38,202 nt of DNA from a virus: the IMG/VR virus record IMGVR_UViG_3300030099_003974, positions 1-38,202 of that record. One strand, given 5' to 3'. The notes below the pieces were generated by a model. It worked only from the letters and a program-made list of their open reading frames with translations, did no database searches and was not told where the DNA came from. The first letter of the stretch is position 1; each line of letters begins with the position of its first letter. The translations under genes were made by a program, and so were the position numbers. This document shows, piece after piece, positions 244 through 35,878 of this stretch.

Positions 244-681
244 TTAATCAACACCAAAGTTAATCTGCACTGCTGTAGTCGGTCTTGCTGGTTCGCTTCT
301 GATTCCAGCTCTGTCCATTAAGTCACGACTAGCTTCTAGTCTTACGTTACCAGACTTGTGTTGTAATAAATCTACCATAGTTGCCATTGCTTGACTACCG
401 TGCCACCCCAACACACTCAATGCCAATTCTTTTCTATAGTCCATAACATGTTGCTTTTGTGCGGTTCGCCACGCCCAAGCTTTGTTCGCACCTATGCGTC
501 TTGATGCTTCGGTTACGGTGCAACCGTCATGCAACACTGCATGAACTAAATCGGCTTGTTGTTGTGTGATTTTTGGATGGTTCTTAATTAGTATTTTTGA
601 AGTTTCTTGTATTTCGTCTAAAGGAACAACACCACGTTTATATTTATATTGTTGTTGTTTATCTGCATTACCTTTAGTCAT
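244..681 (-). CDS. Probable terminase small subunit (HTH DNA-binding)
   Basis: This 145-aa protein probably recognises the packaging site and hands DNA to the large terminase. Residues about 35-70 form a helix-turn-helix region of the phage terminase small-subunit type: a QQQADLVHAVL helix, a TVTEASRRIG helix, then the KAWAWRT recognition-helix region. The C-terminal half is helical and suits oligomerisation. The ATG at 681 was chosen over an in-frame TTG at 747 because that TTG lies inside a repeated regulatory motif (742-755). It is the first gene of the leftward packaging block and is followed by two small proteins and the large terminase across the junction. The assignment rests on position and the HTH pattern, not on a diagnostic motif. 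Confidence 0.65.
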   Translation of the reverse strand: MTKGNADKQQQYKYKRGVVPLDEIQETSKILIKNHPKITQQQADLVHAVLHDGCTVTEASRRIGANKAWAWRTAQKQHVMDYRKELALSVLGWHGSQAMATMVDLLQHKSGNVRLEASRDLMDRAGIRSEPARPTTAVQINFGVD

Positions 682-741
682 CTGTACCCCATTCTCAATT
701 AGCGTTATTGTGTACTTATAAGGTAATTGTTCCCAAATTGC

Positions 742-755
742 TGTCAATTCACATT
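742..755 (-). promoter_or_regulatory. Late-type regulatory motif, copy 1 (TGTGAATTG core)
   Basis: On the minus strand this reads AATGTGAATTGACA, identical over 14 bases to the copy at 6572-6585. It lies 64 bases upstream of the terminase small-subunit start at 681 and points the same way. The nine-base core TGTGAATTG occurs five times in the genome, always leftward and ahead of leftward genes, so a promoter or activator site is likely. No plausible -10 box sits consistently downstream of it in all copies. Confidence 0.65.
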
Positions 756-762
756 TTGTAAG

Positions 763-945
763 TCATTGATATAACAAACGAATTTCATCGAGAAATTGTT
801 TGTTATTAGACCAGTCAGTAGTTATTGTGGTACCAGAAATTAGCCATTTTCCCATCGAGGAAAAATGTCTAATGATACTTTTTTCTTTTTCATTAATATT
901 GTAAAAAGTATAGCTCCAGCGAAAACCATGATGTGTAAGTACACA
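763..945 (-). pseudogene. Possible decayed leftward gene (60-codon open frame without start)
   Basis: Sixty codons are open on the minus strand, ending at a TGA at 763-765 only nine bases before regulatory motif copy 1. The translation looks protein-like (for example HHGFRWSYTFYN and GKWLISGTTITTDWS). The only ATG in the frame is at 855, giving 30 aa, and it has no ribosome site. Upstream of the TGA at 946-948 the same frame stays open for about 45 more codons. A remnant of a real gene is therefore possible, but so is chance openness in structured DNA. The GFRWSY segment recalls the C-terminal tails of some phage HNH-type endonucleases; this resemblance is weak. Confidence 0.3.
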
Positions 946-948
946 TCA
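929..948. repeat. Perfect 8-bp inverted repeat, hairpin A (TGATGTGT stem)
   Basis: The sequence TGATGTGT-AAGT-ACACATCA is a perfect hairpin. The same 8-base arms recur at 1093-1111 around a three-base loop. Repeated palindromic arms about 160 bases apart in a divergent control region could be operators for a dimeric regulator or paired RNA hairpins. Confidence 0.75.
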
Positions 949-1092
949 GGAATTTGTCTCAACGGCTATACGCCGCACTCGCCAAATACACGCTGTCGTT
1001 CTTAGTGTAGAATCATCATCAGAAGTTTCTGCGAACGAATCGTACTCAAAGCAAGAAAAATTAAGTAAAGAAAACGAACATTACCCTCCTAC

Positions 1093-1111
1093 TGATGTGT
1101 TTCACACATCA
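1093..1111. repeat. Perfect 8-bp inverted repeat, hairpin B (TGATGTGT stem)
   Basis: The sequence TGATGTGT-TTC-ACACATCA has the same arms as hairpin A. An outer stem of about six pairs (the ACCCTC and GGGGGT sides, near 1083-1088 and 1114-1119) can extend it. The identical arms with a different loop argue for selection on the arms themselves. Confidence 0.75.
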
Positions 1112-1401
1112 AAGGGGGTCCCAATAATCGTAAATCTAGTTTTTTTCTAAGAAGAAACTTTTTAGCGGTACATCTTTCTATTAAGTGAACGCCTTCCGAA
1201 GTCGGAAGTCGTACTTATTATTGATAGAAAGACGTTCTTATTAAGTTTGTATTACTTCGTAATACAGGAAAAAGTTTGAAAATAACAAGATTTATTCTTG
1301 ACTAAAGTTTTCTTGTTGGAGTCCGTAAAAATTCGTTATCAGAAACGTTCTGATGAAGATTTAGCCAATATCGGCATAACCTAGACAGAAAGGAGTACAT
1401 C

Positions 1402-1614
1402 ATGTCTAAAAAAATCTTATTAAAAACTAACGTAAAGTCAAAATTAACCTGGAGACCAGATCCAGAGCCAATAGATTTACCTGAGGCAATGGAGTTGTTT
1501 ATGTATCCAAACGATACAGCAAGAATAGCGTCAGATGAAATACGACAAGCTCAAGAATCTGGCGATGAACAACGAGTATCCGAATTGGTCGAACTATATA
1601 AAGCCAATATATAA
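1402..1614 (+). CDS. Hypothetical early protein (70 aa)
   Basis: This is the first rightward gene after the structured spacer, with a strong AGAAAGGAG ribosome site seven bases before ATG. The product is small and mildly acidic, with a lysine-rich N-terminus, a WRPDPEPIDLPEAMELF segment and a charged helical C-terminus. There is no membrane segment, signal peptide or known motif. As the first early gene it could act on the host or on transcription, but the sequence gives no direct sign of that. Confidence 0.8.
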   Translation: MSKKILLKTNVKSKLTWRPDPEPIDLPEAMELFMYPNDTARIASDEIRQAQESGDEQRVSELVELYKANI

Positions 1615-1672: not shown

Positions 1673-2380
1673 ATGACACAACCAATCTTAAATTCAAACG
1701 CTACAATATCAATAGACCATAAAGCTGGTAGTAGCCCAGTATTAGACCAAATACCAGAGCACACTCAAGACGAATTAGCTCAATTATCAGCAGAAAGATG
1801 GTCTGGGATGTGTTTACCAACAGAAAAATCCTTAAACAACTTTGGTTATCACATGACATTAGCCCTATCTTCGTTAAACGAGTTAACAAGTGAAGATAGA
1901 ATAGCATGTATGAAATTAGCTGATGGATTTTTAACTGTAGCTGAAAATAAGCGTGACGCAACAGCAGACGAAGGACAATCTGTCAAAAAGCAACTTCAAA
2001 ATCATATGAGAAATTCAGATGGTGGAGATATAGATGTAAATAAACAGATGAAACTTGAAGAAAAGATTGCCAGATTGCGTCAGCAATGGTGCGTCTTAAA
2101 AGAGTCAGTAACAGTATTAGAAACTGTAAGAGAAAGAATGATTACAGAGCTAGGAATTCAAAGCTGGCCCAAGAGATATAATCGTAAAGAAACGCAAAGA
2201 AGTCGTAAATCTATTACAAGAATATCTGCGGACAGTCCAGAGTTTCAAGCAATAGTAAGAGAATGTAGAACATCACGAAAAACAAAGAAGTCTATTGTTT
2301 ATAAGCCAAAATATAATGGTATAGATAATAAGGCATCGGAAGTAGAATATATCGTGCCATGTGATACAGAAATAAAATAG
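1673..2380 (+). CDS. Hypothetical early protein with central coiled coil (235 aa)
   Basis: The ATG at 1673 follows a near-perfect GAGGAGG ribosome site, so the in-frame TTG at 1643 was not used. The protein has a polar N-terminal 40 residues, a helical middle, a likely coiled coil near residues 120-155 (MKLEEKIARLRQQWCVLKES) and a basic C-terminal third rich in Arg and Lys (KRYNRKETQRSRKS), which could bind nucleic acid. No catalytic motif was recognised. A hairpin at 2398-2440 follows the stop. Confidence 0.8.
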   Translation: MTQPILNSNATISIDHKAGSSPVLDQIPEHTQDELAQLSAERWSGMCLPTEKSLNNFGYHMTLALSSLNELTSEDRIACMKLADGFLTVAENKRDATADEGQSVKKQLQNHMRNSDGGDIDVNKQMKLEEKIARLRQQWCVLKESVTVLETVRERMITELGIQSWPKRYNRKETQRSRKSITRISADSPEFQAIVRECRTSRKTKKSIVYKPKYNGIDNKASEVEYIVPCDTEIK

Positions 2381-5860: not shown

Positions 5861-6317
5861 ATTGTTGCCCCCAATGTGCGATAAGAACGGATTCTGCTAA
5901 TCCGTCATGTTTTTTAAGTTTCCAGAGATCTTTATATGCAGGATATAACTCTGATGCTAAATTTCTTGCTTCTTCTTTATCGGAAGATAAACCATAATAT
6001 TTCTTCCATTCTTGCGGTCTAACTTCTACTACCTGATTAAAATAAATAGTTGTAGTACCTAATAGTATACCATAACCAAAACCAGTTTTAAAGGTAGAAG
6101 ATAATCCTTGTTGTGGCATAGCTTGTTGTTTTTCAATATAACAAGTTTGCAAATTAACACGTTGTATAAAAATATCTCTTAATTTAATAATATTAATATA
6201 TCGTGTTTTTTTATTGGCTATTTTTAATGTACTTACCGGCATTGATAAAACATTAAAAAAACTGCCATTCATAAATGTTATACCACCATTTAAACCTGGA
6301 TCTATACCACAAATCAT
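5850..6317 (-). CDS. RuvC-like Holliday-junction resolvase
   Basis: The 155-aa protein should cut branched DNA such as Holliday junctions and recombination intermediates before packaging. It shows the RNase H-type RuvC active-site order: Asp6 in GIDPGLNGG, Glu62 in CYIEKQQAMP, and Asp138 with Glu142 in KKHDGLAES. A glycine-rich GFGYGILLG segment in the middle is typical of the family. Length matches bacterial RuvC (about 170 aa). The start overlaps the HTH gene stop as ATGA, so it is in an operon with it. The exact substrate is inferred from the family. Confidence 0.9.
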   Translation of the reverse strand: MICGIDPGLNGGITFMNGSFFNVLSMPVSTLKIANKKTRYINIIKLRDIFIQRVNLQTCYIEKQQAMPQQGLSSTFKTGFGYGILLGTTTIYFNQVVEVRPQEWKKYYGLSSDKEEARNLASELYPAYKDLWKLKKHDGLAESVLIAHWGQQYGK

Positions 6318-6544
6318 TTTTGTTTTTTTCTTGGTTTAAGAATTAAATCACAATCTAAAGTTTCAGCCCAAACAAAAGCATTAAATAAAGTTGGTTTTCT
6401 ATTACCAATTTCCCATTTAGCAGTTAATCCATTAGCTATACCTGCTTTATGATCAATTTGAGGTTGTGATAAACCTAATTTATATCTTCTTTTTCTATAT
6501 TGTGAGATTAGTTTCTCACAAAATTTATTTTCATTATCTGTCAT
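6314..6544 (-). CDS. XRE/Cro-type HTH transcriptional regulator (76 aa)
   Basis: Residues about 12-60 form a Cro/CI-type five-helix HTH: YRKRRYKLGLSQPQIDHKAG, then NGLTAKWEIGNRKPTLFNAF. The ATG at 6544 was chosen over a TTG at 6577 because the TTG lies inside the TGTGAATTG motif and a GGGGG ribosome site precedes the ATG. It heads the leftward island and sits directly below one copy of the motif found ahead of the late blocks. It is thus a natural candidate for the protein that binds the motif and controls itself and the late genes; this is inference from position. Confidence 0.85.
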   Translation of the reverse strand: MTDNENKFCEKLISQYRKRRYKLGLSQPQIDHKAGIANGLTAKWEIGNRKPTLFNAFVWAETLDCDLILKPRKKQK

Positions 6545-6647
6545 TAAGTTAAGCCCCCACTTAAAATTTAATGTCAATTCACATTACATAATGACATGAT
6601 TAAAAATAAAAGCCAATAATATTTTTATAATTGAAAGGATAATTTAA
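6545..6647. promoter_or_regulatory. Divergent control region with regulatory motif copy 2 and inverted repeats
   Basis: This 103-base gap separates the leftward HTH gene from the rightward gene at 6648. It holds motif copy 2 (6572-6585; minus strand AATGTGAATTGACA). An inverted repeat, ATGTCA (6571-6576) with TGACAT (6592-6597), surrounds the motif, and CATTA-N2-TAATG (6582-6593) lies inside it. Such symmetry suits a dimeric repressor or activator, most simply the adjacent HTH protein. The motif is only 31 bases from the start codon, too close for it to be a -35 box with a -10 downstream. Confidence 0.65.
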
Positions 6648-13938: not shown

Positions 13939-15673
13939 ATTGTGCTCCAATCATTTGCTCAAACACTAAACTATCTCTGACTCCATAGTATGCACCTAAT
14001 TGGTCTTGTAATATAGTATTTGCATATATTTCTTTTGATTCATACCACGTTGGTTGCACTTGTGTTGGCACTTGTTGGTATGTTGTAATGTCAGCACCTA
14101 AAGCATTAACCAATGCTAATGTTGTTAATTGTGCTACTGCATCATATTGACTATCAAAACTTTGCATAATCTCTTTAGCTTTTTCTTGTTTAGCTTCTTG
14201 TTTTTTAGTGGGTTTATCTTCTGCTTTAGCTTCTTTTACTTCTTCCTCTTGTTTAGGTTCTTCTTTTACTTCCTCTTTTATTTCTTCTGGTTCTTCTTTA
14301 GGCTCATTCTCAGCTACTTCTTTTTCTTGAGGTTCTGGCTCTGGTTGTTCCTCTACTACTTCCTTTGGTTCTTCTTTAGTTTCTTCTACTGGCTCGTCAT
14401 TAGACGCTGTTTCTGTGGTAGGGTTACTATCCTCAACCTCCTCTACTGGCTCTGTAGGAGCTTCTGAGGGCGTTTCTATATCCTCATTTACTGGTTCTTC
14501 AGGTGTATTTGCCACTATTTCTGGTTCTGGCTGTGATTCTACCTCTATTGGCTCTGGTTCTTGTTGAGCTATTTCTGGCATTTCTATTGGGTCATTATTT
14601 GTTTCTGTTGCCATAGGTTCTATGGGTTCAGATATTTCTGGTAAATTCATAACTTCTGCTATTTCTTCTGTAACTGCTTCCATAGTTATAACTGGTTCAA
14701 AAGAAACAGTAGTATCTTCAAATGTTGTCTCTATAGGCATAGTTTCTTCAATAGGTACTATCTCTACCATTGGTTCACCTAAATTCATTGTCATATCTGG
14801 TAAATCTGGCATTTCAATAACTTCTACTAAATCTTGCACTTCTTCTACTGGTGTTGAGGTATCTTCTAAAGTATCTATAGGATTATATGTATTCATAATA
14901 TCTAAAGTTGTTGTTGTATCTTGTTCTTGTTGTGCTATTTGCATCCAAGTTTCTACTGTTGTTGTGATATGATTATAAACAACATTATATTGAAACTCGT
15001 CCCAGAAATATTCTCCATAACCGCCAATTTCTATATAAACTTTATCTAACTCATTAGCAAAATCATGACTACCAGTAACTGTATTTACCCAATTCGTATT
15101 ATTATTATAGTTATAAGGATTTTGTGTAAAAGTTGTTTTATCTATCGTTACCAATCCTGTTTCCCATTGTAATACATTATCATTATATCCTTTAGTTTGA
15201 ACATAAGCAGTTTGTCCAGAATTTTGATACATGCTATTTGGAAAAGCAAAAAGAAATTCATAATTAACTTCTCCGCCTTCTTCAATACCAAAAGAATTAA
15301 GATCAACATATTGTCGCCAAGTTGTTAAACTGTTTGTTCTAGCATGACCACAAGCTGAAGTACGACCATCTGTACCAGTTGCAGGAAAACCACTTAATGC
15401 ATCAGTACATGATGTATGTGAATAAACAGATCCAGCCCCACCCCAATCTATATCAGCATCACCCTCGTATCTACTCTGTACGACACCTGTATCGCCATCT
15501 AATACATCACCAGTATCTTTATGTTCAATCGTTACAGTTGTTTCTGTAATTTCTTCTACATCGCCTTGTTGTTCTATTTCTGTAGTTGTTGTTGAACCTT
15601 CATCTAATAATTGTGCATTAGAGTAGTAACAATAAGAAAAGTACACTAAAAATGCCAAAAGCAGTCGTGTCAT
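13931..15673 (-). CDS. Exported acidic Pro/Glu-rich protein (580 aa)
   Basis: A signal peptide is clear (MTRLLLAFLVYFSYCYYSNA, cut before Q). Residues about 60-240 form a beta-rich domain containing Gly/Asn/Trp-rich stretches. Residues about 255-500 are a long low-complexity region of Pro, Glu and Thr. The last 70 residues form a compact domain ending FEQMIGAQYE. The extended acidic region resembles a periplasm-spanning or surface-projecting linker. It overlaps the next exported gene by 56 bases. A role in host envelope change or as a secreted structural protein is possible; no known family was identified. Confidence 0.75.
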   Translation of the reverse strand: MTRLLLAFLVYFSYCYYSNAQLLDEGSTTTTEIEQQGDVEEITETTVTIEHKDTGDVLDGDTGVVQSRYEGDADIDWGGAGSVYSHTSCTDALSGFPATGTDGRTSACGHARTNSLTTWRQYVDLNSFGIEEGGEVNYEFLFAFPNSMYQNSGQTAYVQTKGYNDNVLQWETGLVTIDKTTFTQNPYNYNNNTNWVNTVTGSHDFANELDKVYIEIGGYGEYFWDEFQYNVVYNHITTTVETWMQIAQQEQDTTTTLDIMNTYNPIDTLEDTSTPVEEVQDLVEVIEMPDLPDMTMNLGEPMVEIVPIEETMPIETTFEDTTVSFEPVITMEAVTEEIAEVMNLPEISEPIEPMATETNNDPIEMPEIAQQEPEPIEVESQPEPEIVANTPEEPVNEDIETPSEAPTEPVEEVEDSNPTTETASNDEPVEETKEEPKEVVEEQPEPEPQEKEVAENEPKEEPEEIKEEVKEEPKQEEEVKEAKAEDKPTKKQEAKQEKAKEIMQSFDSQYDAVAQLTTLALVNALGADITTYQQVPTQVQPTWYESKEIYANTILQDQLGAYYGVRDSLVFEQMIGAQYE

Positions 15674-16157
15674 CGCTTAAAAACTCCTCCTCTTTTACAT
15701 CATTTACTTTTAACCATTCATCATAATCTGGTCTTTTTTCTGGATTATTGGCCCATTCTTGAGCCGCTTCTAATCCTATTTTTCCCATATATGGACAAGG
15801 TGTACCTGCCATTTCCATCGCCTGAAAAATTCTAGCGTCTTGACATAACATGGCAACTGCACCTACTTTCATACCCATACGAAATAATGCTCGACTTAAT
15901 TTTAATCGTTCACAGTTTAAATCTCTTATGGCAGTGCCACCTGCTAAACCCAATATTTGAGTTTGTATGGCGGCACTTGCCGCAAAACTACAGACATCTT
16001 GATTATTAATAACTACTGAAGGGGCACTTGCAGTAGAAGGTGTTCGATCAACTGTTGTAGTTCCGCTAACTGTACTGCTTGTGGAGCTAACAGTATTTGT
16101 TTGAGCCATAGATTGCCAAGTAAAAAACAAACAAAATATGACTAAAATCCATTTCAT
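15618..16157 (-). CDS. Exported protein with C-terminal membrane anchor (179 aa)
   Basis: The protein begins with a signal peptide (MKWILVIFCLFFTWQSMAQ) and ends in a hydrophobic segment (AFGIFSVLFLLLLL). A Ser/Thr-rich linker leads to a cysteine-containing domain with SFAASAAIQTQILGLAGG, NCERLKLSRALFRMGMKVGA and CQDARIFQAMEMAGTPCPY. From memory, similar cysteine-bearing blocks occur in other marine phage proteins of unknown role, including T4-like ones. It overlaps the acidic exported protein gene by 56 bases, so the two probably act together. Confidence 0.75.
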   Translation of the reverse strand: MKWILVIFCLFFTWQSMAQTNTVSSTSSTVSGTTTVDRTPSTASAPSVVINNQDVCSFAASAAIQTQILGLAGGTAIRDLNCERLKLSRALFRMGMKVGAVAMLCQDARIFQAMEMAGTPCPYMGKIGLEAAQEWANNPEKRPDYDEWLKVNDVKEEEFLSDDTTAFGIFSVLFLLLLL

Positions 16158-16819: not shown

Positions 16820-19432
16820 TTACTTTGCTGTAGAGTATTTTGCTGGGTTATGTGCTATGGCTAAATACACATAACCATCTGAATCAGAACCATTGACGTT
16901 ACTGTTTGTAGTTCTGAATTTAAAACCATTACTTAAAAAATCCACACTTCTATTAGAATTATCTGTTTCAGCAGCTGAACTGTGTGTAGCTAAAGTTCTT
17001 GTAGCTGGATTATATGTACTTCTAGCATTATCATAGATTTGTGGATCATCTCCAGAATTTACAGCACGCAAAAATAACCAAGCAACATCAAATCCAGTAT
17101 GAACGTAAGAACCGTTTTCATCAGCATTTCCCACATATGATCCTGCTTTAATCCAATCACAATTTGCAAAACAATAAGCTACATAATTTTCACTTTTTCC
17201 TGATTCACTTGCATCACCTATAGAAAAAACTGTGTTTGTAGGGTGTGAACCTCCCCAAACACCAGATGCACCTGTATCTTCTGCGGAATTACTATTTAAT
17301 TTGAACATATTTAAACCCCTATCTTTATGATAAACTCCCCAATCACGACTACTTCTTGATCGTACTATTATCATATATGGAGCAGTATTTAATCCATGTC
17401 CTACAGTTCTTGTTGCTGATTCACCTGTATATGTTACAATAGAAAAACAACCAGAAGGATCAACTTGTACTGTAGAAGTTATAGAGCCATTACTATTACT
17501 AGAGGTTGTTCCACCATTTGCTCTCCAAGCAAAATTTACATGTAAACCACCATCATTAGTATCATTAGTATATAAATTACTACTTGCACCTAAAGTAAAA
17601 CCATCAGTACCTACAGCAGATATATCTTGTCCACTTGTTTGATCTGTTTCTGCTCCATTTGTATTAGCAAATAATCTTTTACCGCCAGTAGATGATATGC
17701 CTCTTGATGTATCATATAGTCTATGAGAAAAAGCACTACCTCTACTTTTAAACCATAACCAATCTGGTTGAAATCCTAATCCTGTAATAGCACGACTAGT
17801 AGTACCATCACCTGTCCATATAGTAGCACCAAACAATTTTTGTGGATAATTGTCATCAGTTTCAGATGGATTTATTGCATTAGCTAATGGTAAATTGCCA
17901 GCACATAATGCTAAAAATCCTGCTGGTACGTCATATTTGAAATTGCCATAACCTGTGTCATCTGCATTTCCACCTGCGGTCAAATTTCCACAAAAAGTAC
18001 CCTCACTACCTGTGTTCATTACTATTTCTGTATCAGGATTAGCCCAAGCAAGAGTAAAAGGAAATTTATGATCTGGATAATCTGAAGCAGTCCATGTTAC
18101 ACCAGCATTTGCACCAGTAGCAGGATTTCCTGTTCCAGAACCTACATCTCCCCACACACCATTGATACCCCACCAACCTTTACCTGCATCCATATCTATA
18201 GCACACATTATAACATCACCAGTAGCAGGCGCACCTTGATTAGTAAATGAAGAATGATTTGGATTTGTAGGATTTGTATCTGTGCTTCCAAATGGAGTAA
18301 GATAAACAGTAGAGCCAGTAAAATATCCCATGTGGCAGAAATTAGCTACATTAGTACCATTACTACCATCAAAAGCTCCTAACTGACTTCCATAATGCCA
18401 ACCTACAGCAAATGAAGGATAACCATCATCTACAATATACCATTCTATATACCATTTACCAGTTTTAACACCCATAGTTCCTATAGTTTGATGATACTTA
18501 TCATTAGTTTCTGATTCTGCAAGAAGATTACCTTCTCTTAAAGTCATTAATTTTTGTGCGCCACCTTGTGGAACTAAAGGATTATAAGTACAATAATTAC
18601 CACCATTAGAATCATCGTTAAAGGTAGGAGTATCAGTTAATTGGTCATGTGATGCAAAATTTGCTACAGTAAAATCATTATCGTTACCTGAAAAATCTTC
18701 GCCAAGATTACTACTATTTGTAAACTTTAACCAATATCCATTATTTCCAAATGTTAAAGATGAAGGATCTTTAGGAATCCACACACCATTTTTATATTCA
18801 CCTAGCTCAGAATAATAAGATTGTCCATCAAAAAACATACAATCAGCTAGTGATAAATCAGCACCTTCAGTACCATGACCTTTTCCAGATAATCCACCCC
18901 ATGCTTGTACTAATCCATCTGCATTTAAATAAGAAAATGATTCATCTTGTGCAGTATTAGTAATCATAGCTTGATTTCGCCAATCTGGTGAAGGTGAAGT
19001 TCCAAGTTGTCTACCATTTACATAAACACGAATTCTGTCAAATTGTGTTGATTGGCTAGTGTCTATACGAAGAATTACATGATACCAACTTGCAGGATCA
19101 CGATATTTTTCTTCACTTAAAAGATAACCAACACCTTGATTTCCTCCAGTATTTTCCATAGTTAATGTAGCATTATAAGCAATGTAAAAATAATTACCCC
19201 CACCAGTACCAGTTGTAAAAACATTATTTGCTCCTGCATCTGTAGAATCTGGCGTATGTCTTTTAACCCAAAAACTCATAGTCATCTTTGTTGTGCTTGT
19301 AGGTGTTCCTGCTGTAAATTTTAAAGTTGAATTTCCAGAAGCACTACCTCGTATAGAGTTTGCTATTTGGTAATCATAGAAACCAGTATCAGCTGGAGCA
19401 GATATAGCATTGCTATTTTGTAATAAACTCAT
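16820..19432 (-). CDS. Large tail fibre / receptor-binding candidate with LamG-like domain (870 aa)
   Basis: Residues about 45-225 form a concanavalin/LamG-like lectin domain (MSFWVKRHTP, SWYHVILRIDTSQS, RIRVYVNGRQLG). A SPRY-like part follows (about 290-480: GKWYIEWYIVDDGYPSFAVG), then three repeats near residues 540-860 with the pattern GFQPDWLWFKSR and DGFTLGAS, also seen as APYMIIVRSRSSRDW and FDVAWLFLRAV. This modular glycan-binding build is typical of marine phage fibres. The start overlaps the upstream fibre gene as TAATG, so it probably attaches to that T7-like fibre and sets host range. Confidence 0.8.
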   Translation of the reverse strand: MSLLQNSNAISAPADTGFYDYQIANSIRGSASGNSTLKFTAGTPTSTTKMTMSFWVKRHTPDSTDAGANNVFTTGTGGGNYFYIAYNATLTMENTGGNQGVGYLLSEEKYRDPASWYHVILRIDTSQSTQFDRIRVYVNGRQLGTSPSPDWRNQAMITNTAQDESFSYLNADGLVQAWGGLSGKGHGTEGADLSLADCMFFDGQSYYSELGEYKNGVWIPKDPSSLTFGNNGYWLKFTNSSNLGEDFSGNDNDFTVANFASHDQLTDTPTFNDDSNGGNYCTYNPLVPQGGAQKLMTLREGNLLAESETNDKYHQTIGTMGVKTGKWYIEWYIVDDGYPSFAVGWHYGSQLGAFDGSNGTNVANFCHMGYFTGSTVYLTPFGSTDTNPTNPNHSSFTNQGAPATGDVIMCAIDMDAGKGWWGINGVWGDVGSGTGNPATGANAGVTWTASDYPDHKFPFTLAWANPDTEIVMNTGSEGTFCGNLTAGGNADDTGYGNFKYDVPAGFLALCAGNLPLANAINPSETDDNYPQKLFGATIWTGDGTTSRAITGLGFQPDWLWFKSRGSAFSHRLYDTSRGISSTGGKRLFANTNGAETDQTSGQDISAVGTDGFTLGASSNLYTNDTNDGGLHVNFAWRANGGTTSSNSNGSITSTVQVDPSGCFSIVTYTGESATRTVGHGLNTAPYMIIVRSRSSRDWGVYHKDRGLNMFKLNSNSAEDTGASGVWGGSHPTNTVFSIGDASESGKSENYVAYCFANCDWIKAGSYVGNADENGSYVHTGFDVAWLFLRAVNSGDDPQIYDNARSTYNPATRTLATHSSAAETDNSNRSVDFLSNGFKFRTTNSNVNGSDSDGYVYLAIAHNPAKYSTAK

Positions 19433-21243
19433 TATGCATATACCACACTATTTGTTAAATAAGCATTTGTTCCATCTGAAAGATAGCTAACAAGATACGT
19501 TCCAGCTGTACTTAAAGTTGCAGCAGTTGTTGCAGAACCTTTAGTGTTTGCATGTAAACTTACAGTATGACCACCACTATTAATTAATAATATGTACCCA
19601 GATTGACCATCTGCATGATTAGTAAATGTTAATGTAAAATTACCAGACGGAGTACATTTAAAATTATTAGTTGCGTTCATGTCAAACGAGCCGTCATTAT
19701 CTACTGTTAAAGCGTTACGTTGTGGCGCAGTATAGGCGTTTGTTTCATCTTTAGCTACAATGTCAGCATTATAAGCTTGAACATTTGTGCCTATTGCTAA
19801 ACCAAGAGTTGTTCTTTGTGCTGAAGCATCTGCATCATCTAACAATGCTCTACCTGCCGCAGTACAAGTTATTTCTTCTATAGTACCAGCACCACTTGAA
19901 CTACGACCTAGTATTTTGTCGGTAGCACTTACATTTACTATTTCTGCTAAAGCCACACCTTGGTCTTTAATTGTTACAGCGCCACTTGATACAGAGAAAT
20001 TATCAGAATGGAAACTTGCAATACCTTTATTACTTGTAGAAGCATCTTCACCAGATATAGTAACTTTATCAGTAGCACCTACAACAGTATCTATTCCTTC
20101 TCCACCTTCAATATCTAATGTGTTACCGTTTCCTATAGTTTGATTAGTTCCGCTATCAGCAGTAAGCGTAAAATCAGACATAGTTCCATCACCATCAGCT
20201 CCTGCTGGCCCTTGAATTCCTTGAATTCCTTGAATTCCTTGACTTCCAGTTGCACCTATAATATTTACTTGTTTTACCCAACGAGTGTTTGATGTTTGAT
20301 ATTTAGCAATATCACCTTTTGCCGCACTTGATAAAGAAGAACTTCCATCTGTATCATACCAAGTTAATCCTGAACCTACAGCCGCAGTAAATAAAAAGAA
20401 ATCGCCATCAGATGGAGAACCTGGAAAAGAATTTCCTGTAGACCATATAGCAGTACCAGGTATTCCAAAATTTAAACTTGCCGCCGCAGAACTGCCAGCA
20501 TTTGCAACAGTTGGAGTTGCACCAGGTGATAATTCAGTTACAGAATTAACAGCTATTGTTGCCGCATTACCAGTAGCACCTGTTGCTCCAGTAGCACCTG
20601 TAGGCACTCCAAATGCAAATGTCATTGCACCAGTTGTTGTATTATAAGATGCACTAGCAGTTGCACTACCACCAGCACTTACAGTTGAAACTGTTGCAGA
20701 AGCACTTGCTGGATATACAATAGCAGACAATGTATTACCAGAACTATCAAAAACTAAACCTTTATTTGCTCTAGTAGATGCATTAGGTAATAACATAGTA
20801 ACGTCTGTATCAGATTCAGCCAATCTAATTGATCTGTCGTATTTAGTATTATTTTCTTGTGCAATAGCAAATGCTTTATCTAAATCTGTATTTAAACTAC
20901 CTATATTAAATGAACCTGATGTTGGAAAATCAGTTGCTCTTTCTATTACAATATCTCTATATATTGTAACTGTTGATGATACTACTGACGCACCTAAAGT
21001 AACGCTACCACCAGTAAAACCTTCATCATCTGCGGCTGTTCCTGAAACTGTAAATTGTGTAGAATTAGGAGAACTTGCTACTCTAGAATATGTTGTATCT
21101 ACTCCACTACTGTTTGTTACAACTACTTTAATGTCATCTAAAGAGAAGAATGGAAAATCAATAGTAAAAGCACCTGCGGAGCCTCCACTATTAGTTGTAT
21201 ATCTTACTCTTGCATCATTATCTGCTATTGTTAAATTTGCCAT
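19432..21243 (-). CDS. Tail fibre with T7 gp17-like N-terminal anchor and collagen-like segments (603 aa)
   Basis: Residues 1-150 match the T7 tail-fibre N-terminal domain that docks on the tail: VRYTTNSGGSAGAFTIDFPF, SVTLGASVVSSTVTIYRDIV, and LNTDLDKAFAIAQEN. Collagen-like Gly-x-y runs follow near residues 215-225 (GATGATGATG) and 330-350 (GSQGIQGIQGIQGPAG). The C-terminal part is beta-rich with a compact ending domain. A regulatory motif copy lies 45 bases upstream, so this gene starts its own fibre transcription unit. Fibre trimerisation is inferred from the family. Confidence 0.9.
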   Translation of the reverse strand: MANLTIADNDARVRYTTNSGGSAGAFTIDFPFFSLDDIKVVVTNSSGVDTTYSRVASSPNSTQFTVSGTAADDEGFTGGSVTLGASVVSSTVTIYRDIVIERATDFPTSGSFNIGSLNTDLDKAFAIAQENNTKYDRSIRLAESDTDVTMLLPNASTRANKGLVFDSSGNTLSAIVYPASASATVSTVSAGGSATASASYNTTTGAMTFAFGVPTGATGATGATGNAATIAVNSVTELSPGATPTVANAGSSAAASLNFGIPGTAIWSTGNSFPGSPSDGDFFLFTAAVGSGLTWYDTDGSSSLSSAAKGDIAKYQTSNTRWVKQVNIIGATGSQGIQGIQGIQGPAGADGDGTMSDFTLTADSGTNQTIGNGNTLDIEGGEGIDTVVGATDKVTISGEDASTSNKGIASFHSDNFSVSSGAVTIKDQGVALAEIVNVSATDKILGRSSSGAGTIEEITCTAAGRALLDDADASAQRTTLGLAIGTNVQAYNADIVAKDETNAYTAPQRNALTVDNDGSFDMNATNNFKCTPSGNFTLTFTNHADGQSGYILLINSGGHTVSLHANTKGSATTAATLSTAGTYLVSYLSDGTNAYLTNSVVYA

Positions 21244-21285: not shown

Positions 21286-21299
21286 GGCAATTCACATCA
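21286..21299 (-). promoter_or_regulatory. Late-type regulatory motif, copy 3
   Basis: The minus strand reads TGATGTGAATTGCC, and the core starts directly after the TGA of the upstream gene (21297-21299). It is in the 53-base gap before the fibre gene at 21243 and points leftward. It shares the nine-base core TGTGAATTG with four other copies; the two bases after the core are CC here and AC in copies 1 and 2. Confidence 0.7.
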
Positions 21300-31054: not shown

Positions 31055-31885
31055 CTATTTCTTTAGACCTGCTTCGATACATCCATTAGCATCGATAAGA
31101 ACAGATTCCATTTGCATTTTATTTAAAATGAAATAACTATCTTTATCATTGTGATAATCAATATTAGATTGAACATCAGCACCAATAGCATGACCTACAG
31201 CAGTTCTGTGGTATAGAAAACATTTACGACAATCGACTGAACTAATAGTTACTGAATCTAAGCCAGAATGTGGAAACCACATAAAGCCTAGCCAGTTTTT
31301 AGCAGTCATTCCAGATGGGAATGGAAGTTGATCCATTCCTACATATTCAGCTCTGCTGAATTGATCTATACTCATTAATTGAGACCAATTTTCCCAGCCA
31401 ATTACAGCATAACGCTGTCCATCATCAGGAACATCGTTATTACCCATAGTTTCCATTTGGGTTAAAGCCCAAGCTAATGTAATTCCGTTAGAAGTTTCAT
31501 TAGATGCTGTGCTTGTACCGTCCATAGCTGTTAAAATTAAGTCATCGGTTTTTCTTCCCAAAGCGTAAGCTCCAGATTCTTGTGCTACAACCATTTCATC
31601 ATGGTTAACACGTAAAGTATCTAGATCGTCTACCCATTCACCGGCGAACCAATCTGCTAATGTTACATTAACATTTGTATGTTCGAGATTCATAGGTGGA
31701 ACAGAACCAGCACGTGCTTTTTGTGTAGCAGTACCTTTGCCTACTTTTTGGAACGTAGTCTTATTTTTTACGCCATCACGTGTTCGAGTTGTATTACGAA
31801 GTTTAGAACCCATACGCTGATAAGCCATGTGAACTCCAGCTTCAAACTCCTCAACAAATGATGTGCTAATAGTATTAAAAGCCAT
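31055..31885 (-). CDS. Major capsid protein (276 aa)
   Basis: The protein follows the scaffold gene and lies above the tail-tube genes, the usual place for the coat protein. It starts MAFNTISTSFVEEFEAGVHM and includes FAGEWVDDLDTLRVNHDEMV, GRKTDDLILTAMDGTSTASN and YAVIGWENWSQLMSIDQFSR, a layout seen in coat proteins of marine podoviruses. A strong GGAGG site precedes it, after a 157-base leader with regulatory motif copy 4. HK97-type folding is likely for the class but not visible directly. Confidence 0.8.
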   Translation of the reverse strand: MAFNTISTSFVEEFEAGVHMAYQRMGSKLRNTTRTRDGVKNKTTFQKVGKGTATQKARAGSVPPMNLEHTNVNVTLADWFAGEWVDDLDTLRVNHDEMVVAQESGAYALGRKTDDLILTAMDGTSTASNETSNGITLAWALTQMETMGNNDVPDDGQRYAVIGWENWSQLMSIDQFSRAEYVGMDQLPFPSGMTAKNWLGFMWFPHSGLDSVTISSVDCRKCFLYHRTAVGHAIGADVQSNIDYHNDKDSYFILNKMQMESVLIDANGCIEAGLKK

Positions 31886-32042
31886 ATTAGCCTCCAGTTA
31901 AAGTTAAAAAAAAGTTTGTTTTTCGGTTAGTCCTCACGCCTATCAAAGAATTAGTCCATATAGGGTTCTTGAATGTTGGCAATTTGGGCCGTTTAACATT
32001 TTAAGTTTTGTCTTTTAACAATACTTTTGGCAATTCACATTA
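31886..32042 (-). promoter_or_regulatory. Capsid leader with regulatory motif copy 4 and possible pseudoknot
   Basis: Motif copy 4 (32029-32042; minus strand TAATGTGAATTGCC) begins directly after the scaffold stop. The leader then runs 143 bases to the capsid start. Within it, AAGAA (31966-31970) can pair with TTCTT (31946-31950), and CCTAT (31960-31964) with ATAGG (31939-31943). These cross, as in an H-type pseudoknot, though both stems are only 5 bp. A T-run (minus strand, eight T) and the GGAGG site follow. Confidence 0.6.
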
Positions 32043-34255: not shown

Positions 34256-35878
34256 TTATTGTGGTAAGCCAACCTGACCTTCTTGTTGAGCTCCTTGCAT
34301 TTGTTGCATAACTTCTGCGGCTTGTTCTACTTCTGCTTGTAATTCTTCTTGGCTGTTTAATAAATCTTCATCTATACCAAATTTAGATGCTAACCATTTA
34401 ACAGTTCTTTCTCTATTCATTAACATCATTGCCATTTGTGGACCAAATGTTGCCATAATAGATTCGCTAAATCGCATAAAATCAGATACATCTTGTTGAT
34501 CTTGTGCTCGTAATAAAGGACTTACTGGAACTATTCGTATTTCTCTACCATCTATACGTGGCAATTCTAATAATCCCATTTCTTTATATATGTATACAAT
34601 ACGATTAACTAATGGTTGTAAAAATTCTCTTTGCATACGACCAGCTACAGCACCCATATCTCTTGCTACTTCTGCTAATCTTTGAGAAACTTCTGTTGCA
34701 GATAATGGTGTTTTTGCACCTTCACGTTCTAACTCATCAATAAATAATGCTTTTCTTACATTACGTCTTTGTTCTTCTAATACTAATTGTGCTACATCAA
34801 ATCGTGATGGTGATTGTAATGGTTCTATTTTACTACCTGCGGCTCTTGGAACAAAAGCTCCAGGTTGTAAAATAATATTTTCAGGATTAAATACTCCATC
34901 ATCATCATACATATATGCACCAGCTATTGCCATTTCCGCATTTTCTAAAATTAACTTAACTGTTAAATTTAAAGTTTTTATTGCTGGCATTGCTTGTAAT
35001 ATTGGACCCCTTCCCCAAACTTCAAATCCAGATTTTGACCATCGTGTAGAAATCCAAGGATTACTTCCTGATCCTACATATTCTTGCACATATAAAACTT
35101 CTTTATGTGTTTCTGATAAACACACTTTTATCCATGCATCTTCTAGAGGTTTATTTTTATCAACCATAGTTGCTTCAATAATTTTTATTTTCTTATCAGG
35201 ATTACGTTTTATATCATCTAAAATTTTTGGTGTTAATTGAAAGTAAGGATAAGTTTGTTGCAAATCACGAAGGCGTAAATCATTACGCCAATGAAACCAA
35301 CATCCCACTTCATCGCCTTTTGCTGGTAATAACGCAACATGAGTTGGAGGAACAGAAGTAAATTTTAAATCTCCAACAAATCGACCTGGCTCACATATCA
35401 TATTCATTGTGCCTACACCAAGATCTTGCAATCCTTCATGTAATTCAGAATTAAAATTACTATTACGTAATCCTTCATGTATTAAATCAGTTGCATTATC
35501 TAATTCTGCCATAACTCTTTGGCTACGCATATTTCCAGGATATTCTGGACCAGGCATTAAACGAAATGCTCGACCATTTGGTGGAAAAAATCCTAATTGT
35601 AAACGTGATGCAAATCGTGGTACTCCAACAACAGCAGTTTCATCATAAATTATATCTGTACGTTTTTGACCAAAAACCTCGCTACCAGTATTACTATCAA
35701 AAAATCCTTCTCGACCAGGTAATACATAATCAAATATTTCATCCCAAGTGCTAACCCAATTATCTCTACGTTTTTTAGCTTCTTTAAACATTTTCATTGT
35801 ACTTTCGTACAAACTTGATTGTTGAGTTCCTTGTGGGCCAGTAGGATTTGGATCAGTACGAGGTTCTATTTGTGCCAT
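34256..35878 (-). CDS. Portal (head-tail connector, T7 gp8-like)
   Basis: The 540-aa protein should form the dodecameric portal. It carries the podovirus connector pattern: RRDNWVSTWDEIFDYVLPGR, the ASRLQLGFFPPNGRAFRLMP block, ENAEMAIAGAYMYDDDGVFN, and KTPLSATEVSQRLAEVARDM near residue 390. The C-terminus is Gln/Glu-rich with coiled coil. Length matches T7-like connectors. It starts right after the upstream small gene's stop. Confidence 0.95.
   Translation of the reverse strand: MAQIEPRTDPNPTGPQGTQQSSLYESTMKMFKEAKKRRDNWVSTWDEIFDYVLPGREGFFDSNTGSEVFGQKRTDIIYDETAVVGVPRFASRLQLGFFPPNGRAFRLMPGPEYPGNMRSQRVMAELDNATDLIHEGLRNSNFNSELHEGLQDLGVGTMNMICEPGRFVGDLKFTSVPPTHVALLPAKGDEVGCWFHWRNDLRLRDLQQTYPYFQLTPKILDDIKRNPDKKIKIIEATMVDKNKPLEDAWIKVCLSETHKEVLYVQEYVGSGSNPWISTRWSKSGFEVWGRGPILQAMPAIKTLNLTVKLILENAEMAIAGAYMYDDDGVFNPENIILQPGAFVPRAAGSKIEPLQSPSRFDVAQLVLEEQRRNVRKALFIDELEREGAKTPLSATEVSQRLAEVARDMGAVAGRMQREFLQPLVNRIVYIYKEMGLLELPRIDGREIRIVPVSPLLRAQDQQDVSDFMRFSESIMATFGPQMAMMLMNRERTVKWLASKFGIDEDLLNSQEELQAEVEQAAEVMQQMQGAQQEGQVGLPQ

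Follow-up and report, generated by a model that had tools for sequence, protein, structure and literature searches.

A structured spacer at the early/late boundary of an aquatic phage lineage, most likely an uncatalogued RNA with a conserved fold and a fast-changing sequence

The spacer between the terminase small-subunit gene (TerS) and the early genes of this phage genome, at the early/late boundary, most likely encodes a structured phage RNA that is not yet catalogued. Comparison with related loci shows that selection keeps its fold, its synteny and the strand that folds while the sequence turns over quickly. We are nearly certain that the fold is under selection, and the spacer probably works as an RNA of the minus strand. 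All coordinates refer to the window, the whole 38,202-nt stretch of the virus record that was analyzed.

The window carries a 99-base terminal repeat and is therefore probably a complete, circularly assembled genome. Its TerL is 57% identical to that of the Pelagibacter phage EXVC031P Hodr, which makes a host of SAR11 type plausible. The late genes start with TerS and run leftward across the join; they include TerL and the structural genes, reach about 10765, and form a unit of about 28 kb. Early genes run rightward from 1402, and the spacer separates them from TerS. The ATG at 679-681, with GGGG upstream, is the likelier TerS start. The elements at this boundary are as follows:

244-681, minus strand: TerS (terminase small subunit); the open reading frame extends to 747 with a TTG start.
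716-755, minus strand: putative TerS (late) promoter between spacer and TerS, with a AATGTGAATTGAC box at 743-755 that includes TTGAC(A), and TTATAA at 716-721.
757-1401, minus strand as the folded strand, in the same sense as TerS and the late genes: structured spacer, identified by folding energy, genome rank and strand test.
1402-1614, plus strand: first early gene, 70 amino acids; homologues follow the spacer in relatives, most of them starting with KQLDLF.
1673-2380, plus strand: second early gene, 235 amino acids, helical; conserved beside the spacer in relatives.

An AlphaFold2 model of the second early protein is helical and of low confidence (pTM 0.51) and gives no functional clue. 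No polymerase, primase or helicase was recognized among the early proteins tested, and ARAGORN found no tRNA or tmRNA in the window. The small first early protein has KQLDLF or DQLDLF at or near its start in most clade B and C relatives and several of clade D (e.g., L036:4165-4404, L041:3006-3242, and L104:1293-1505); the window's own protein lacks it. We take the KQLDLF start to resemble the bacterial beta-clamp-binding motif.

The spacer folds far better than expected from its composition. Against shuffles of equal dinucleotide content (20 per strand) its energy z-score is -9.0 on the plus and -8.1 on the minus strand, and the core at 1005-1365 reaches -10.0 (100 shuffles). When the 38-kb genome is covered by 127 tiles of 400 nt, both strands have their strongest fold in the tile at 901. 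The next-strongest folds by z-score in this tiling, at 15601-16000 on the minus strand and at 34801-35200, lie in or at coding regions. The strong signal, missed by the initial annotation, is long-range pairing of 1011-1072 with 1295-1361, which forms a rod with nested hairpins; individual hairpins are a small part of the whole fold. The main structural features, all assigned to the minus strand, are as follows:

771-806: hairpin at the TerS end with inner loop TCGAT, from the inverted-repeat and hairpin search.
845-867: hairpin CATTTTTCC-TCGAT-GGGAAAATG; the loop TCGAT recurs in other clades on other stems.
929-948: hairpin TGATGTGT-ACTT-ACACATCA, absent in this form from L005 and L056.
1011-1361: core rod, an imperfect inverted repeat with arms 1011-1072 and 1295-1361 (z-score -10.0; inverted repeats I2, I4, and I6); helices 1 to 8 of alignment A2 in this rod carry compensating changes.
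1092-1112: hairpin TTGATGTGT-GAA-ACACATCAA, helix 8 of alignment A2, its stem kept in L005 with a different loop.
1173-1228: long interrupted hairpin, innermost stem CTTCCG and loop ACTT, from the inverted-repeat and hairpin search and the fold; longer in the window than in L005 and L056 (a gap in alignment A2).
1248-1266: hairpin TGTATTAC-GAA-GTAATACA, helix 5 of alignment A2, with compensated changes in L005 and L056 (pairs 149/158 and 150/157).

The initial annotation, made from the sequence of the window by itself, had described a spacer free of normal genes and dense in hairpins, and much of that description holds. There is no open reading frame of at least 60 amino acids in 757-1401. At least seven hairpins had been claimed, and we located eight with at least six pairs (781-797, 845-867, 929-948, 1092-1112, 1193-1208, 1248-1266, 1279-1298, and 1338-1354); the two TGATGTGT hairpins are present, and the loops AAGT and TTC each occur twice, as reported. 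The 60-base four-stem structure exists, but as one long interrupted hairpin (arms 1173-1199 and 1202-1228), and the spacer is not more GC-rich than its surroundings: it has 34.7% GC, against 39.0% in the left flank, 34.2% in the right flank and 31.6% genome-wide. The enrichment in short hairpins is modest (8 in 690 nt versus about 5 expected, given 267 in the remaining 36.7 kb), and their count alone is weak evidence.

Relatives were collected by TerS searches in IMG/VR, which gave 55 and then 80 loci and, from these, 51 nonredundant upstream regions. By similarity the spacers form clade A (the window, L005, L056, L001, L002, and others), clades B, C, and D, and singletons. A folded spacer occupies the same place in relatives of at least four sequence clades, and the gene order TerS, spacer, g70, g245 is constant among relatives. 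Spacers of most relatives, distant ones included, have z-scores of about -3 to -13; folds are weak in a few (e.g., L004, L018, L022, and L047). Annotated phages show no DNA similarity to the window, and a TerS profile search of prokaryote genomes returned no relative with the patterns used, so no prophage or host link emerges.

Compensating changes argue that this fold is maintained. In clade A the consensus fold has 171 pairs, and 95.4% of its cells pair across the window, L005, and L056; 23 pairs are changed on both sides, compared with 7.9 ± 2.2 in shuffled alignments and 1 to 4 when one side is slid. Clade C (seq­uences, n = 7) has 21 of 110 pairs changed on both sides, against 10.7 ± 1.9 shuffled and 4 to 8 slid. 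These counts come from related, hence nonindependent, sequences (only three in the window's own clade alignment), and the structures, being derived from the same alignments, are favored over the slid control. The initial annotation had named covariation in aligned relatives as its own check, and compensating changes are indeed there, above both controls. Evidence that depends less on alignment comes from a clade C hairpin that follows (GUA)n, where 11 distinct sequences carry six different stems of 4 to 7 pairs whose arms are complementary in every case, with loops GAUUA, CAUUA, GAUA, GUAA, or UUA; a second clade C hairpin shows similar stem replacement. A single alignment of all clade D spacers has almost no consensus energy because their modules differ, and the case for that clade consists of single-sequence folds and the strand test described below.

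Whole hairpins turn over as well. TerS of L010 and L011 is identical over the aligned part, yet only about 219 of 720 positions agree between their spacers, and among clade B spacers that are otherwise near-identical, entire hairpins differ; together these differences point to exchange of modules between phages and recombination at the spacer. Loops are steadier than stems: loops of 4 to 5 nt recur on up to seven different stems, whereas no loop exceeds three stems among five of the ten shuffles. UCUU occurs on seven stems in clade A, UCUUC on five and ACUUC on three in clades B/C and one other, and UCGAU on five stems across clades A, B/C, and D. Such constant loops on variable stems suggest loop recognition or tertiary contacts. 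Clade C also has conserved unpaired stretches.

To identify the folded strand, we counted isolated 1x1 mismatches in helices predicted on both strands. Viewed on the plus strand, A·C outnumbers G·T by 45 to 1 in 25 spacers (clade A, 13:0; clade B, 13:0; clade C, 19:1), compared with 24:37 in dinucleotide shuffles, and the clade D mismatches lean the same way (47:14). Since a plus-strand A·C is a minus-strand G·U, these counts indicate that the folded strand is the minus strand, in the sense of TerS. What the test reveals is a folded single strand and not RNA per se, because G-T is also the stabler mismatch in single-stranded DNA; the minus-strand loops, which are GNRA-like and T-loop-like, weakly favor RNA. 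An earlier idea, that GAAGA loops on the plus strand resemble lambda boxB, was dropped since the wobble pairs indicate the minus strand. The spacer therefore has what is looked for in a structured RNA, namely, a fold that beats dinucleotide shuffles, compensating changes, and strand-specific G-U pairs, a combination that single-stranded DNA could also produce. Of the candidates listed in the initial annotation, it is the structured RNA that the covariation, the replaced stems, and the strand-specific wobble pairs bear out.

In 36 of 51 relatives, a TTGACA-like/TATA-like pair, mostly with 19-nt spacing, is found downstream of the fold on the strand of TerS, some 66 nt ahead of TerS residue 28; the spacing is 19 to 21 nt in the window and clade A. 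This conserved site looks like an activator-dependent late promoter, and given its location the TerS mRNA need not contain the fold. We found no convincing terminator before TerS and no consistent leftward sigma-70-type promoter at the early end of the spacer; the absence of such a promoter is the chief weakness of reading the spacer as an RNA.

Our tentative interpretation, held with somewhat less than even confidence, is that leftward transcription of the spacer yields a structured RNA, which acts in cis where the late unit begins. An RNA of about 600 nt, encoded on the minus strand and read toward TerS and the late genes, would be made leftward from the early-gene side and would adopt a rod shape with hairpins at its sides; the loops that recur on these (UCUU, UCGAU, and GNNA-like) could serve as contact points. 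It would sit in cis at the entrance of the ~28-kb leftward late unit, and our best guess is that it serves the early-to-late switch as a leader or control RNA, which might, for example, modify host RNA polymerase or set the level of transcription from or through the late promoter. Taken by itself, the role in late control in cis is doubtful. Lambdoid late-leader RNAs and cis antitermination RNAs such as HK022 put are structured segments located upstream in a long transcription unit. The spacer is likewise structured and at the upstream end of such a unit; those RNAs, however, are shorter, the spacer comes without an identified antiterminator or a promoter of its own, and the only promoter-like site found is downstream of the fold, whereas a late leader would follow the promoter that drives the late genes.

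An unlikely, though serious, alternative is a stand-alone large RNA that acts in trans to assemble, scaffold, or sequester factors of the host or the phage, its place beside TerS reflecting expression timing only. GOLLD and ROOL are large ornate phage and prophage RNAs of this sort, with elaborate folds and unknown functions, often near tRNA islands (PMC12286853). The spacer resembles them in being phage encoded and hundreds of nucleotides long with an elaborate, covariation-supported fold. Its multidomain architecture, the conserved unpaired stretches of clade C, and the recurring loop motifs all suit such an RNA, and the fold ends short of the promoter-like site of TerS, which is what one would expect of a separate transcript. 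It differs in its location, between TerS and the early operon with no tRNA gene in the window, and in the fast turnover of its stems and sequence, and cis elements more typically show a synteny this constant, here with TerS and the early genes. Neither the window nor 19 relatives matched any Rfam family at the gathering score, and relaxed thresholds gave only chance-level matches; the covariance models of GOLLD, ROOL, OLE, and other catalogued RNAs were not matched. The open-access papers searched contain no report on this element. In kind, the spacer would be a large structured phage RNA, outside any named family.

Initiation of replication, the other serious alternative, is also rather improbable as the role of the spacer; it would act either as a folded preprimer RNA or as a single-stranded-DNA site that loads the host primosome on the lagging strand. 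ColE1 RNA II and other structured origin RNAs are folded RNAs of about 550 to 600 nt with many hairpins, which the spacer matches in size, in hairpin number, and in belonging to a genome without recognized replisome genes; it differs in that no primer junction, antisense RNA, or replication start is identified in it. If none of the early proteins belongs to a replisome, host machinery must be recruited, for which the way the first early protein begins in most relatives, with a clamp-motif-like sequence, would be fitting, and a single-stranded-DNA fold needs no promoter and yields the same strand asymmetry. However, neither iterons nor recognized origin motifs were noticed, and several early proteins lack an assignment, so that a replication protein may be among them. 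A reversal of GC skew was rejected as evidence for an origin since the skew follows gene direction, its sign change coinciding with the change in gene orientation.

Packaging is a very unlikely role. It is common for a pac site to be inside a TerS gene or next to it, and the spacer adjoins TerS, but a packaging RNA or pac site for the neighboring terminase finds no counterpart in Rfam, and L010 and L011 share TerS and not the spacer, so changes in the fold are not tied to changes in TerS. We found no positive evidence for this candidate of the initial annotation, nor for its operator array; no two copies of the hairpins need have the same stem, and the stems are not repeats of a single operator. 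Operators or cruciforms at the DNA level between divergent promoters, or a functionless relic of an inverted duplication, are highly improbable: the divergent arrangement would suit them, as would the imperfect inverted duplications present both in the window (1011-1072 with 1295-1361) and in Hodr, but double-stranded sites would not give strand-asymmetric G-U mismatches, a relic would lose pairing although 95% of pair cells are kept, and stems differ wholly between copies.

Returning to the structured RNA at the early/late boundary, it comes close to an even call whether it represents a new class: a large phage RNA of a widespread aquatic lineage built of interchangeable hairpin modules, in which shape, loops, and strand are kept and stems are swapped. 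If so, the loops and overall shape would be what is recognized, and stem sequence would be free to vary or even pressed to differ. The large structured phage RNAs known so far are few, and for most of them the function is open; this element occupies the same genomic position in dozens of contigs from aquatic phages, and its replaced stems and swapped modules are an unusual natural record of which parts must stay. A counterpart in the cultured phage Hodr (OQ414635) makes its role testable in infection. The Hodr spacer has the same place upstream of TerS, a z-score of -5.0, and a large imperfect inverted repeat; it differs in that its intergenic stretch is about half as long, with arms that extend into the first early gene, in having a canonical TerS promoter with 17-nt spacing, and in showing no DNA match. 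The Hodr repeat (about 7591-7990 of L060, arms of about 145 nt) covers both the spacer and the beginning of the first early gene, and it extends as far as the TerS promoter.

Two further motifs were seen. The box AATGTGAATTGAC occurs exactly at 743-755, before TerS, and at 6573-6585 on the minus strand, before a leftward HTH gene (6314-6577), the latter copy being present also in the relative L003; with one or two mismatches it occurs at 32029-32041 and, on the minus strand, at 21286-21298, before the genes at 31055-31885 and 19432-21243, respectively. The five matches compare with 2.4 expected, a number not significant alone, and the box may be a regulator site with autoregulation. In the early operon, two intergenic hairpins on the plus strand (2398-2440 and 2663-2708) have different stems and a common GTGGTCGCTAG, a motif with no exact match in the relatives fetched; the second is followed by T8 and resembles a terminator.
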